The notes under the pieces were generated by a model that saw only the letters and a program-made list of their open reading frames with translations, searched no databases and had not been told where the DNA came from. From Pelagibacterales bacterium MED-G42 (GTDB lineage: Bacteria; Pseudomonadota; Alphaproteobacteria; Pelagibacterales; Pelagibacteraceae), in NCBI GenBank assembly GCA_002457485.1, contig NTJL01000001.1, positions 1-64,000 on the forward strand: 64,000 bases of DNA. Direction: 5' to 3'. Shown in pieces: positions 2,234 to 6,946 of the stretch (the first letter of the stretch is position 1; every line of letters starts with the position of its first letter). The position numbers were made by a program, and so were the translations under genes.

Positions 2234-3445
2234 TTATACTTTCTCAAAAATTAAAGCAGCATTGGTTCCACCAAAACCAAAACTATTAGACATTACTGTA
2301 TTTAAAGTTGCTCCTGTTTCAGTTTTAGCAATTATTGGAAATTTTTTAGCCTCATCATCCATTTCATTAATATTAGCAGATCCTGCTATAAAATTATTTT
2401 TCATCATAATTAAACAATAAATTGCTTCATGAACTGATGCGGCTCCTAAAGGATGACCTGACAAAGATTTTGTTGAACTAATTTTTGGAATTTCATTTCC
2501 AAAAGCTTTTTTGACAGCATTTAATTCTGTAATATCTCCAACAGGAGTAGATGTTCCATGAGTATTTATATAATCAATTTTATTTTTAGAAGTAGCCATC
2601 GCCATTTGCATACATCTTACAGCTCCCTCGCCTGATGGTGCTACCATATCGTATCCATCTGAAGTTGCTCCATAACCAGTTAATTCTGCGTATATTTTAG
2701 CTCCTCTTGCTTTAGCATGTTCGTATTCTTCAAGTACCAACACACCACCACCACCTGCAATTACAAAACCATCTCTAGTTTTATCATATGCTCTGGATGC
2801 TGTTTCTGGTGTTTCATTATATTTTGAAGATAAGGCTGTCATAGCATCAAACATTGCAGTCATCGCCCAGTGTATCTCTTCACTACCACCTGCAAAAACA
2901 ATATCTTGTTTTCCCATTTGAATTAATTCCATTGAGTTTCCAATACAGTGACCACTTGTTGCACAAGCAGAACTCATTGTGTAGTTTGTTCCTTTAATTT
3001 TAAATGGAACAGCAAGTGTAGCTGACGCTGTACTGGCCATTGTTCTTGGAACAATGAATGGTCCCATTAATTTTGGAGTTTTAGCTCTAGTTTTATCTGC
3101 TGCTAAAATAACATTTTCAATTGATGGACCACCCGAACCCATGACTATTCCTGTTTTAAAGTTACTTACTTCACTTTCCTCTAATCCAGAGTCTTCGATT
3201 GCCTCTTTCATAGCTATATAATTATAAGCAGAGCCTGATCCCATAAATCTAATGGTTTTTCTATCTACATAATCTGACAGATTTATGTTTGGCTTACCAT
3301 GAACATGACTTCTCAAATTATGCTCTTTGTATTCTTCACTGAATGTTATGCCAGACTTTGAATGTAATAATGATTGATGTACTTCTTCTTGGTTATTACC
3401 CAAACAAGAAACAATCCCTAATCCTGTAATTACCACTCTTCTCAT
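2234..3445 (-). CDS. fabB: 3-oxoacyl-ACP synthase I
   Basis: [18 protein letters not shown]; active-site region [14 protein letters not shown]-term [14 protein letters not shown]. Confidence 0.95.
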
Positions 3446-3945
3446 TATTTAAATAAACCTACTTTTAAACTTTCTGCTGAGTATATTTTTCTATCATCTG
3501 CTAAAACCAATCCATTAGCAAGACCAACAGTTGTTCCTCCCGGGGACATAATTTTTTTCATATCAATCACATATTTAACGTTTTTCACATTTTGTAAAAC
3601 TTCACCAGTAAATTTTACAGTACCCACTCCTAGAGCCCTTCCTTTTCCAGGATTTCCTAACCAACCTAAATAAAAACCTACTAATTGCCACATAGCATCA
3701 AGACCTAAACACCCAGGCATAACTGGGTCTTCTTTAAAATGACAATCAAAAAACCAAAGATCATCTTTTATGTCTAATTCAGCTTTTAAAGACCCTTTTT
3801 TGAAGACTCCGTTATTCTCATTAATTTCTGTTATTCTATCAAACATGAGCATTGGAGGAAGTGGTAATTTTGCATTTCCAGGACCAAAAAGCTTACCATT
3901 ACCGCAAGTTATAAGGTCATCATATGAATATGAGTTTTTTTTCAT
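3445..3945 (-). CDS. fabA: 3-hydroxydecanoyl-ACP dehydratase/isomerase
   Basis: [31 protein letters not shown] is the FabA motif. The ORF track starts at 3993; the internal Met ([11 protein letters not shown]) at 3945 is the likelier start. Confidence 0.93.
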
Positions 3946-3992
3946 ATATTTTGAAACTCTTAATACTTGATTTATTAACAATATAATATACA

Positions 3993-4021
3993 AATAGTTT
4001 AGAATTATTATAAATAAGTAT
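3993..4021 (+). promoter_or_regulatory. Irr/ICE-like operator in the fabA-irr divergent region
   Basis: AATAGTTTAGAATTATTATAAATAAGTAT, with TTTAGAA-N3-TTATAAA dyad; nearly identical inverted copy at 4472-4499. Confidence 0.6.
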
Positions 4022-4448
4022 GAACTTTAACACTGAATTTGTTAATAAACTTAGAATATCTGGATTAAGACCTACTAAACAGAGAATTAAAATATGTGAA
4101 ATTCTTTTTAATAGGGAAAAAACCTTTCATTTCACAATAAATGATCTATCAAAAATGATAAGTGAAAAATTGAATGAAAAAATATCTTTAGCAACTATTT
4201 ACAATACTATTCATGCTTTTAAAAAAAAGGGTTATTTAAAAGAAATTTCGATTAATAGTGATAAAAGCTATTTTGATACTAATACCTCAATTCATCATCA
4301 TTTCTATGATGAAGACACCAATCAGTTAATTGATTGTAATGAGGATGATATTAATGAAGTTAAAATAAATAACAATTTAACTGGAAAAAAAATCAATTCT
4401 GTTGAAGTTTTAATTAAAGTTGCGAGTGATAATCAAAATCAAAATTAA
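4020..4448 (+). CDS. irr: Fur-family iron-responsive regulator, Irr-like
   Basis: [20 protein letters not shown] winged helix; [15 protein letters not shown] histidine cluster typical of Irr; synteny with fabA/fabB/fabI. Confidence 0.8.
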
Positions 4449-4471
4449 TATAATAAAATCAATTACTTAAA

Positions 4472-4527
4472 ATACTTATTATAATAATTCTAAACTATTG
4501 ACTTATAGTTTAGAATCATTATATATA
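4472..4527 (+). promoter_or_regulatory. Rubrerythrin promoter with overlapping inverted operator half-sites
   Basis: Perfect dyad TTCTAAACTA-TTGACTTA-TAGTTTAGAA (4488-4515) encloses a -35-like TTGACT (4498-4503); TATATA at 4522-4527 in -10 position; 4472-4499 is the reverse complement of the 3993-4021 element minus one A. Confidence 0.65.
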
Positions 4528-4552
4528 AACTTCATTAATTAAGGAGAAATAT

Positions 4553-4969
4553 ATGTCATTAAAAGGTACAAAAACTAAAGAAAATTTAGAAGCAGCTTTT
4601 GCAGGAGAGAGTCAAGCTAATAGAAGATACCTTTATTTTGCTCAAAAAGCAGATATTGAAGGTTATAACGATGTAGCAACAGTATTTAGATCTACAGCAG
4701 AAGGTGAGACCGGTCATGCTCATGGGCATCTTGAATTTCTAGAGGAAGTAGGTGATCCTGCAACAGGTTTACCTATTGGAGAAACGAAAGCAAATTTAGA
4801 GTCAGCCGTCCAAGGGGAAACACATGAGTATACAGATATGTATCCAGGAATGGCCAAAACTGCAAGAGAAGAAGGCTTTGAAGAAATTGCTGATTGGTTT
4901 GAAACATTGGCAAAGGCTGAAAAATCTCACGCTGGTAAATTTCAAAAAACACTGGAATCAATTTCTTAA
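4553..4969 (+). CDS. Rubrerythrin-family protein
   Basis: [34 protein letters not shown]... [14 protein letters not shown]; diiron ferritin-like EAxxGE/ExxH motifs. Confidence 0.9.
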
Positions 4970-5018: not shown

Positions 5019-6350
5019 ATGAGTAAAGAAGGCAGTATTGAAGCGCCGATAAGACATCCAATAGACTTCGAACATCCTAATTTTTTAAACCCTGATAAAT
5101 TAGATGCTGAGATGAGAAGAGCCTTTGATATTTGTCATGGTTGCAGAAGATGTTTTAATCTATGTGACTCATTTCCGAAGTTGTTCGATATGATCGATGA
5201 GTCTGAAAATGAAGATGTAGATAGTTTAAAAAGTGAACAATTTGAACCAGTAGTTGATGCATGCACATTATGTGATATGTGCTTTATGACCAAGTGTCCA
5301 TATGTGCCACCTCATGAATTTGACTTAGATTTTCCACATTTAATGTTGAGATACAGAACTGCACAAAAAAAACTTGGTAAATTAAATAAAATTCAAAAAG
5401 AATTAGCACATGTAGATAGAAATGGAAAAATTGGTATAATGTTTTCAAGACTCATCAATTGGGTATCAGATATCAAAAATAAATTTATTAGAAATTTATT
5501 AGAAATAATAATTGGAATCGATAGAAGAGTTCGTCTACCAAAATATAATTCTGAAACATTTTCAAATTTTTTTAAAAAAAATAGAGATAAGATTAATTTT
5601 GAAACTTCTCAAAAAAATAGAAAAGTTGTTATATACACAACTTGTTTTGTTAATTTTAATAAAAAAAATACAGGCGTAGCAGCTTTAAAAGTTTTGAAAA
5701 AAAATGGTGTCGAGGTACAGGAAGCTTATCCTGGATGCTGTGGGATGCCTTTTTTGGAACAAGCAGACCTACCAAAGGTAGTTGAACAAGCAAAAAAAAT
5801 ATCAAAAGATTTGCTAGAATGGGTAAACAAGGGGTACAAAATTATAACTTTAACAGCAAGCTGTGGTTTAATGCTTAAGTTTGAATGGCCCTTATTACTT
5901 CCAAATAATGATGATATAAAAAGATTATCTATAAATGTGATGGATATTGATGAATATATTGTTGATATATCTAAAAATGAGGGTTTAGTTGATGGGTTAG
6001 AAGCAATTGATGGTGGTGTAACAGTACATCATGCTTGTCATGCAAGAGCCCAAAATATGGGCAATAAAGCTAGAGATATGTTAAAATTAATTCCCGATAT
6101 TAAAATAGATGTAGTTGAAAGATGCGCAGGTCATGGCGGAACTTTTGGTGTTATGAAGGAGACACATCATTTAGCAAATAAAGTAGGAAGACCCACAGCT
6201 AGACAAATTAAAAATAAAAATAATAAGTATATGGCATCAGATTGTCCTCTTGCAGGAAAACATTTGAAACAATTAGAACAAGACACTAATATTTCTAATG
6301 ATGAGGCACTACATCCCATAGAGTTACTCGCAAAAAGTTATAGATTATAA
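5019..6350 (+). CDS. CCG-domain Fe-S oxidoreductase (GlpC/HdrD-like)
   Basis: Two 4Fe-4S motifs (CHGCRRCFNLCDSFP, CTLCDMCFMTKCPYVPP) and CCG motifs (YPGCCGMPF, ERCAGHGGTFG). Start trimmed from 4986 to ATG 5019. Confidence 0.88.
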   Translation: MSKEGSIEAPIRHPIDFEHPNFLNPDKLDAEMRRAFDICHGCRRCFNLCDSFPKLFDMIDESENEDVDSLKSEQFEPVVDACTLCDMCFMTKCPYVPPHEFDLDFPHLMLRYRTAQKKLGKLNKIQKELAHVDRNGKIGIMFSRLINWVSDIKNKFIRNLLEIIIGIDRRVRLPKYNSETFSNFFKKNRDKINFETSQKNRKVVIYTTCFVNFNKKNTGVAALKVLKKNGVEVQEAYPGCCGMPFLEQADLPKVVEQAKKISKDLLEWVNKGYKIITLTASCGLMLKFEWPLLLPNNDDIKRLSINVMDIDEYIVDISKNEGLVDGLEAIDGGVTVHHACHARAQNMGNKARDMLKLIPDIKIDVVERCAGHGGTFGVMKETHHLANKVGRPTARQIKNKNNKYMASDCPLAGKHLKQLEQDTNISNDEALHPIELLAKSYRL

Positions 6351-6352
6351 TA

Positions 6353-6946
6353 ATGAGTAAAGATGAAAAACAAATTCGAAAAGAAGACATCATGCCAATG
6401 GATGTTTATATTAAAAATAGAAAAGAATTAAGAAAGAATATTGTTAACTTCAAGAAAGATAGAAGAATTGAACTTGGTCCTTATGCAACTTTTTATTTTG
6501 AAAGTTTTGAAACAATGTTAGCTCAAGTTCAAGAAATGCTTTATATTGAAAAAGGGGGAGACGAACAGCTTAGAGATGAATTAGCAGCTTATAATCCATT
6601 AGTACCGAATGGTAAAGAATTAACGGCAACTTTGATGTTCGAGATAGACAACCCAGTATCTAGAGCATCATTTCTTAATAAAGTTGGAGGAATTGAGGAT
6701 AAAGTTTTTATAAATGTTGATGGAGATACTATAATGGCTTCCCCAGAAGAAGATGTTGATAGGACTTCCTCAAATGGTAAAGCTTCATCAGTTCAATTTA
6801 TTCATTTTAAATTTACAGACGAACAAATTCAAAAGTTTAAATCAGATGGAGCAAATGTTGAACTTGGTATAAATCACAGAGAATATTTTCACACTACGAA
6901 ATTGGGACTAGAAAACATTAATTCACTATCTTCAGATTTTAATTAA
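6353..6946 (+). CDS. DUF3501 family protein
   Basis: IMPMDVYIKNRKELRKNIVNFKKDRRIELGPYATFYFESFETMLAQVQEML; 2 bp downstream of the Fe-S oxidoreductase. Confidence 0.75.
   Translation: MSKDEKQIRKEDIMPMDVYIKNRKELRKNIVNFKKDRRIELGPYATFYFESFETMLAQVQEMLYIEKGGDEQLRDELAAYNPLVPNGKELTATLMFEIDNPVSRASFLNKVGGIEDKVFINVDGDTIMASPEEDVDRTSSNGKASSVQFIHFKFTDEQIQKFKSDGANVELGINHREYFHTTKLGLENINSLSSDFN

Follow-up and report, generated by a model that had tools for sequence, protein, structure and literature searches.

The window analysed here, the first 64,000 nucleotides of contig 1 of an 831-kb genome assembly, has a G+C content of 28% and carries a gene, irr (positions 4020-4448 of the window, forward strand), for a regulator of the Fur superfamily that scores best against Irr profiles. 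The closest named relatives of the window are single-cell genomes of Pelagibacteraceae (SAR11). The divergent neighbour of irr is fabA (3445-3945, reverse strand), which encodes a FabA-like dehydratase (PF07977). Homology of fabA to its relatives begins at the ATG at 3945, and this is its conserved start, rather than the TTG at 3993. Downstream of irr, the forward strand carries rbr (4553-4969), a CCG-domain Fe-S oxidoreductase-like gene (5019-6350; PF02754) and a DUF3501 gene (6353-6946; PF12007), the latter two being the second and third genes of the rbr operon. The rubrerythrin encoded by rbr comprises the ferritin-like part only (138 aa; PF02915, E-value 1.5e-30), and its gene is the first of a slot whose content, as described below, is exchanged among relatives.

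The regulator had been termed Irr-like in a preliminary description of this DNA, and we concur that it is most probably an Irr-clade Fur protein. The best curated models are NCBIfam IrrA (129 bits) and Irr (120 bits), whereas PerR and Fur models reach at most 62 bits (PerRA and PerRB give 62 and 53 bits vs cut-offs of 200 and 250, respectively). That the window Irr falls below the cut-offs of both Irr models (150 for IrrA and 170 for Irr) counts against the reading favoured below; three syntenic orthologues from other Alphaproteobacteria, likewise located beside rubrerythrin, score 204-208 bits, above the IrrA cut-off of 150. An HXH motif predicted to bind heme is present as HHH at residues 92-94 and is invariant in 12 aligned sequences. 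The Cys-Pro heme regulatory motif of the B. japonicum type does not occur in this 12-sequence alignment, and such a motif is not universal in Irr, Brucella Irr being without one (PMC3413700). A search of the PDB found no Irr structure, the matches being Fur and PerR proteins.

The probable -10 element of irr is the TATAAT at 3982-3987 (forward strand), which is conserved in SAR11 relatives. A TTGATT at 3967 was rejected as the corresponding -35 element, being merely 9 bp from TATAAT. The rubrerythrin operon has its -35 element, TTGACT, at 4498-4503 (conserved as TTGAC), and its probable -10 element, TATATA, is read from the sequence at 4520-4525 with a 16-bp spacer (both on the forward strand); an alternative -10 at 4522-4527 would leave a spacer of 18 bp. 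Between the divergent fabA and irr genes, the stretch at 3959-3987 (CTTAATACTTGATTT and then TATAATATA) shows strong conservation, and some of it may form part of the fabA promoter on the opposite strand.

The 17-bp boxes at the irr locus

The preliminary description had drawn attention to a 28-nt element, AATAGTTTAGAATTATTATAAATAAGTAT, at 3993-4021, to its reverse complement minus one A at 4472-4499 and to a third half-copy, TATAGTTTAGAATCATTAT, at 4504-4522, and all three are found at these positions. The longest exact inverted match in the region 3900-4560 is 21 nt, whereas 500 dinucleotide shuffles gave 11.9 nt on average and never more than 20. The perfect 10-bp dyad also reported, TTCTAAACTA-TTGACTTA-TAGTTTAGAA (4488-4515), is present too and is among the few in the 64-kb window with a loop of at most 12. 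It does not stand as an operator in its own right: it arises where two distinct boxes (B and C below) turn their strong halves towards each other, and its N8 centre and outer letters vary among relatives. The 28-nt element fares no better as a conserved unit, as relatives keep a box of 17 bp, or at most about AG plus the 17 bp, and the outer flanks of its copies match only inside this genome. Neither the 28-nt unit nor the dyad is conserved as such in relatives, and both were rejected as functional units.

The unit that is conserved is a 17-bp box of the Irr/ICE type with the consensus TTTAGAAT-N-ATT(A/C)TAAA (over 323 boxes). Nearly every box combines one strong half, TTTAGAA, with one weaker half, usually TTATAAA, and some loci, such as L026, have full palindromes. 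The published Irr box, or ICE, is a dyad of the TTTAGAA-N3-TTCTAAA type, a form that the consensus of the 323 boxes shares, and as expected of sites at or near a target promoter, the three boxes of the window all lie beside -10 or -35 elements. Box A (TTTAGAATTATTATAAA; 3998-4014, forward strand), a predicted Irr-type operator, is situated in the presumed irr leader, 10 bp downstream of TATAAT and 5 bp before the irr ATG. Box B (TTTAGAATTATTATAAT; 4478-4494, reverse strand) ends 3 bp upstream of the rbr -35 element and is found at the same position in other Alphaproteobacteria. Box C (TTTAGAATCATTATATA; 4509-4525, forward strand) occupies the spacer between the -35 and -10 elements of rbr, its weak half overlapping the -10, and its centre lies 31 bp from that of B. 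Control of fabA through the same element had also been proposed; box A precedes the conserved start of fabA by about 50 bp and no tie between the two was found. With nothing found in its support, fabA was rejected as an Irr target.

Comparison of orthologous irr loci reveals that the 17-bp box is conserved there, both at irr and at the rubrerythrin operon, which bears out the earlier suggestion of one element common to the two. Among 144 distinct irr loci, box A is present in 132, box B in 103 and box C in 88, as against 14.9, 1.1 and 1.1 expected from shuffled flanks, respectively. The positions of the boxes are nearly fixed: the centre of A lies about 14 bp before the irr start, 10 bp after TATAAT, the end of B is 3-4 bp from TTGAC, C starts 10-12 bp from the start of the -35, and the centres of B and C are 30-33 bp, or three helical turns, apart (31 bp in all rbr loci having both). 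Identity to the window in rbr loci is 94% over B and 75% over C, but 66% in the intergenic stretch that precedes B and 35% beyond C. As B or C is absent from many loci, neither appears to be indispensable.

The likeness to the Irr/ICE box that had been noted in the window extends to a near-specificity for this locus in whole genomes of the genus (59 genomes, comprising the window's own and 58 near-complete ones). The exact pattern TTTAGAATNATTATAAA has 40 matches in these genomes vs 8 for the reversed pattern, and wherever the locus of an exact match was fetched, it proved to be fabA-irr-rbr/katG, although in one case a contig end leaves fabA as the sole neighbour. A looser box pattern gives 146 matches in the 59 genomes, of which 106 are at irr and cover all 57 of the 57 genomes with the locus; the 40 away from irr are fewer than the 75 of the reversed control. 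Thus, no wider regulon is visible at this sensitivity and a wider Irr regulon was rejected, though weak or degenerate Irr sites may be present elsewhere in the genome. A recurrent variant away from irr, TTTAGAAT[AT]ATTTTAAA, was also set aside, as it falls within spoT/relA coding sequence in both loci opened (a box-like 17-mer at 1501-1517 of L007 and L169, from different genomes). This 17-mer probably reflects coding conservation and is a trap for motif scans.

Exchange of rbr and katG downstream of irr

The gene downstream of irr is rbr in 23 and katG in 34 of the 59 genomes, never both and never with a second copy. Relative to the irr match, rbr starts at 105-121 bp and katG at 58-128 bp, with a single exception in which a contig end intervenes. 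The CCG-domain gene comes after rbr in 34 of 34 named rbr loci and in the majority of loci at class level, with DUF3501 following it; neither gene was found within about 8 kb downstream of irr in katG genomes (five loci). A single locus (G120) was read through gene by gene; beyond katG and one further ORF, it has the genes that also come next in the window, namely SH3-like, ThiF/MoeB-like, dUTPase and coaBC-like genes. The exchange of rbr and katG between fixed flanks is clean and the boxes are retained. The ORF after katG in G120 (L251, 3398-4009; 203 aa) resembles an aspartyl/asparaginyl beta-hydroxylase-type protein.

A tree of Irr requires five switches between rbr and katG, at least four of which are forced by well-supported branches, the count being approximate as this tree has few columns. 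The fabA tree requires 11 such changes, and the smaller number on the Irr tree suggests a degree of joint movement of irr and its neighbour. A strict co-loss of Irr and scavenger was considered for two genomes that seemed to be without irr, rbr and an intact katG. It was rejected, since in one of them, G082, part of katG is left at the edge of a contig, and assembly gaps may lie behind the apparent absences. Two loci of the sister family f2 deserve mention. In one (L201, G127), fabA is upstream of irr and neither rbr nor katG was found downstream. In the other (L034, G038), irr is 53% identical to that of the window vs about 45% for its own family, and it has katG and a C-type box beside it but lacks fabA, which would fit the transfer of an irr-katG cassette.

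Further out, Irr is found in 69 of 115 genomes of a class-wide sample of Alphaproteobacteria. When non-SAR11 loci were opened, rbr was downstream of irr in 26 of 29, at 80-89% identity in all but one, and the CCG gene was also present in 24 of these 26 irr-rbr loci. Thirteen of the 24 measurable irr-rbr spacers contain a box that departs from TTTAGAA-N3-TTCTAAA at two positions or fewer, usually right before TTGAC (the per-locus probabilities from shuffling sum to only 2.2 over all 24), and such B-type sites also occur in spacers of 45-65% G+C. Since B abuts the -35 in many GC-rich irr-rbr pairs, the irr-rbr arrangement with B looks ancestral in the class, whereas A and C look, from their distribution in these sequences, like additions in the SAR11 family of the window. 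The double site over the -35 had been described as unusual, which does not apply to B, as a site at the -35 upstream of rbr recurs in Alphaproteobacteria; C and A alone appear to be SAR11-specific.

Within SAR11 and its relatives, the sister family f2 mostly has rbr with box B alone, and in the SAR11 genera g8 and g10, as well as in a single genome of g9, the neighbour of irr is katG, with a C-type box. With the KatG type of the window's genus, that of g8 shares just 51-58% identity, an indication that the two were acquired separately. No Irr was detected at the search threshold in g5 (G061, G064), g6 (G065, G089, G294) and g7 (G075, G132, G191), and the KatG proteins of these three genera are 52-62% identical to the window-genus type. 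In g6, open frames with a rubrerythrin-domain match (L243 in G065, L244 in G294, L248 in G089) are about 320-330 aa long, like the iron exporter MbfA.

The exchange of the peroxide-defence gene under conserved Irr-type operators is new here and is a deeper finding than the operator itself. No description of an exchangeable slot of this kind was found in the literature searched, which did not extend to the principal previous work predicting alphaproteobacterial Irr boxes, Rodionov et al. 2006.

Predicted control by Irr

Based on the form and placement of the boxes, we consider it likely that Irr represses both itself and the adjacent peroxide-defence operon via A, B and C. Irr, as a Fur-family dimer, would recognise TTTAGAAT-N-ATTCTAAA. 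At A, just past the irr -10, the dimer would shut off transcription of its own gene (autorepression); at C, where the box covers the spacer and -10, it would do the same to the peroxide-defence operon, and it is these positions of A and C that argue for repression at the two sites. Box B, plausibly the older site, abuts the -35 from upstream, where a second dimer on the same face of the DNA and three turns from that at C could reinforce or tune repression, or could serve activation. By analogy with known Irr proteins, Irr would let go of the DNA on binding heme, possibly promoted by oxidation, and both promoters would then open.

Indirect expression data bear on the sign of this control. The genome G066, which we take to be that of P. 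ubique HTCC1062, has the arrangement fabA-irr-rbr-CCG-DUF3501 with A, B and C, its DUF3501 gene presumably being SAR11_0401. In iron-limited P. ubique, rbr mRNA is up 1.57-fold and the SAR11_0401 protein 2.21-fold, while irr tracks stationary phase and is not clearly iron-responsive (PMC2864753); under sulfur limitation, rbr mRNA stands at 0.17 and the protein at 2.24 of control (PMC5069961). A small rise of rbr at low iron is a misfit with a textbook low-iron repressor, and so keeps in play both a peroxide-linked signal and an activating Irr. Known Irr proteins repress or activate depending on the position of the site, direct activation being reported as common, and release DNA on heme binding (PMC7762939). 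It is conceivable, though we think it unlikely, that Irr activates the peroxide-defence operon from B (centre near -48), with C and A acting as feedback brakes at high Irr. The antiquity of B across the class and the later addition of C would suit such a scheme, as would the iron-limitation response; against it, 34 katG loci have C without a recognisable B, the P. ubique induction is small and may be indirect, and deletion of irr in R. sphaeroides raises mbfA, along with peroxide resistance (PMC3413700).

It is improbable that the other Fur paralogue (of the Fur/Mur type) or another factor binds the boxes in place of Irr. SAR11 genomes do have a gene for another Fur-family protein, and Fur-family sites in general are typically AT-rich dyads, but the motif is Irr-box-like, is detected at the irr locus only and recurs at irr-rbr pairs class-wide, and those SAR11 genera that lack Irr retain the paralogue yet have no box near its gene. 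Contradicted by the shuffle and reversed-pattern controls, by conservation above that of the flanks, by retention of the boxes despite exchange of the downstream gene and by the same box in spacers of 45-65% G+C, and hence very improbable, is an origin of the box likeness in chance or in AT-rich, -10-like promoter sequence and recent common descent, even in a window of 28% G+C where the box halves resemble TATAAT, C overlaps the -10 and the pattern at two mismatches is no commoner than its reversal.

A broader and more tentative proposal may also be made. It is possible that in SAR11 a global Irr has shrunk to a self-limiting, PerR-like switch for one slot, in which rbr-CCG-DUF3501 (non-heme-iron) or katG (heme) are swapped while the operators are kept or rebuilt. 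SAR11 are among Earth's most abundant cells and live with photochemical peroxide in iron-poor water with very few regulators. The irr locus would directly tie an iron/heme regulator to a peroxide scavenger, and it displays the choice of enzyme by lineage. It thereby offers a compact prediction of how SAR11 may sense and respond to peroxide; the swapping of the gene under unchanged promoter logic amounts to a natural experiment. The operator could also be used as a marker of Irr control in SAR11 metatranscriptomes.

Comparison with known systems

PerR-type regulators are autoregulated Fur-family repressors encoded beside rubrerythrin or catalase genes. The SAR11 locus resembles these systems in having a Fur-family regulator next to a peroxide-scavenging gene and, presumably, in autoregulation; it differs in that the window protein scores as Irr (129 bits) vs at most 62 bits for PerR, and in that its operator is unlike the per box. 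In B. japonicum, the rubrerythrin-like blr7895 and the bfr gene bll6680 are cited as being ICE-controlled (cited in PMC3413700). The SAR11 locus shares with blr7895 an Irr box at the promoter of a rubrerythrin-domain gene and, presumably, the logic of repression; blr7895, however, resembles the membrane protein MbfA, whereas SAR11 has a soluble rbr-CCG-DUF3501 set, and the citing text describes no exchange of the target.

A further likeness is to the Irr-ICE systems of Rhizobiales and Rhodobacter, which also have a Fur-superfamily Irr with an HXH-type motif, the same box form and boxes on or near core promoters; their targets include the rubrerythrin-type mbfA, and oxidative-stress phenotypes are known from them (PMC3413700, PMC7762939). 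For example, the R. sphaeroides protein occupies Irr boxes in the promoters of mbfA and ccpA, and the 5' end of mbfA falls within the Irr box of that gene (PMC3413700). The Irr of Rhizobiales is a global iron regulator with many targets, whereas in SAR11 the irr locus alone is detected, and where the target in Rhizobiales and Rhodobacter is mbfA, the putative target in SAR11 is a soluble rubrerythrin or katG, with the boxes in the irr leader (A) and the promoter spacer (C) in addition.
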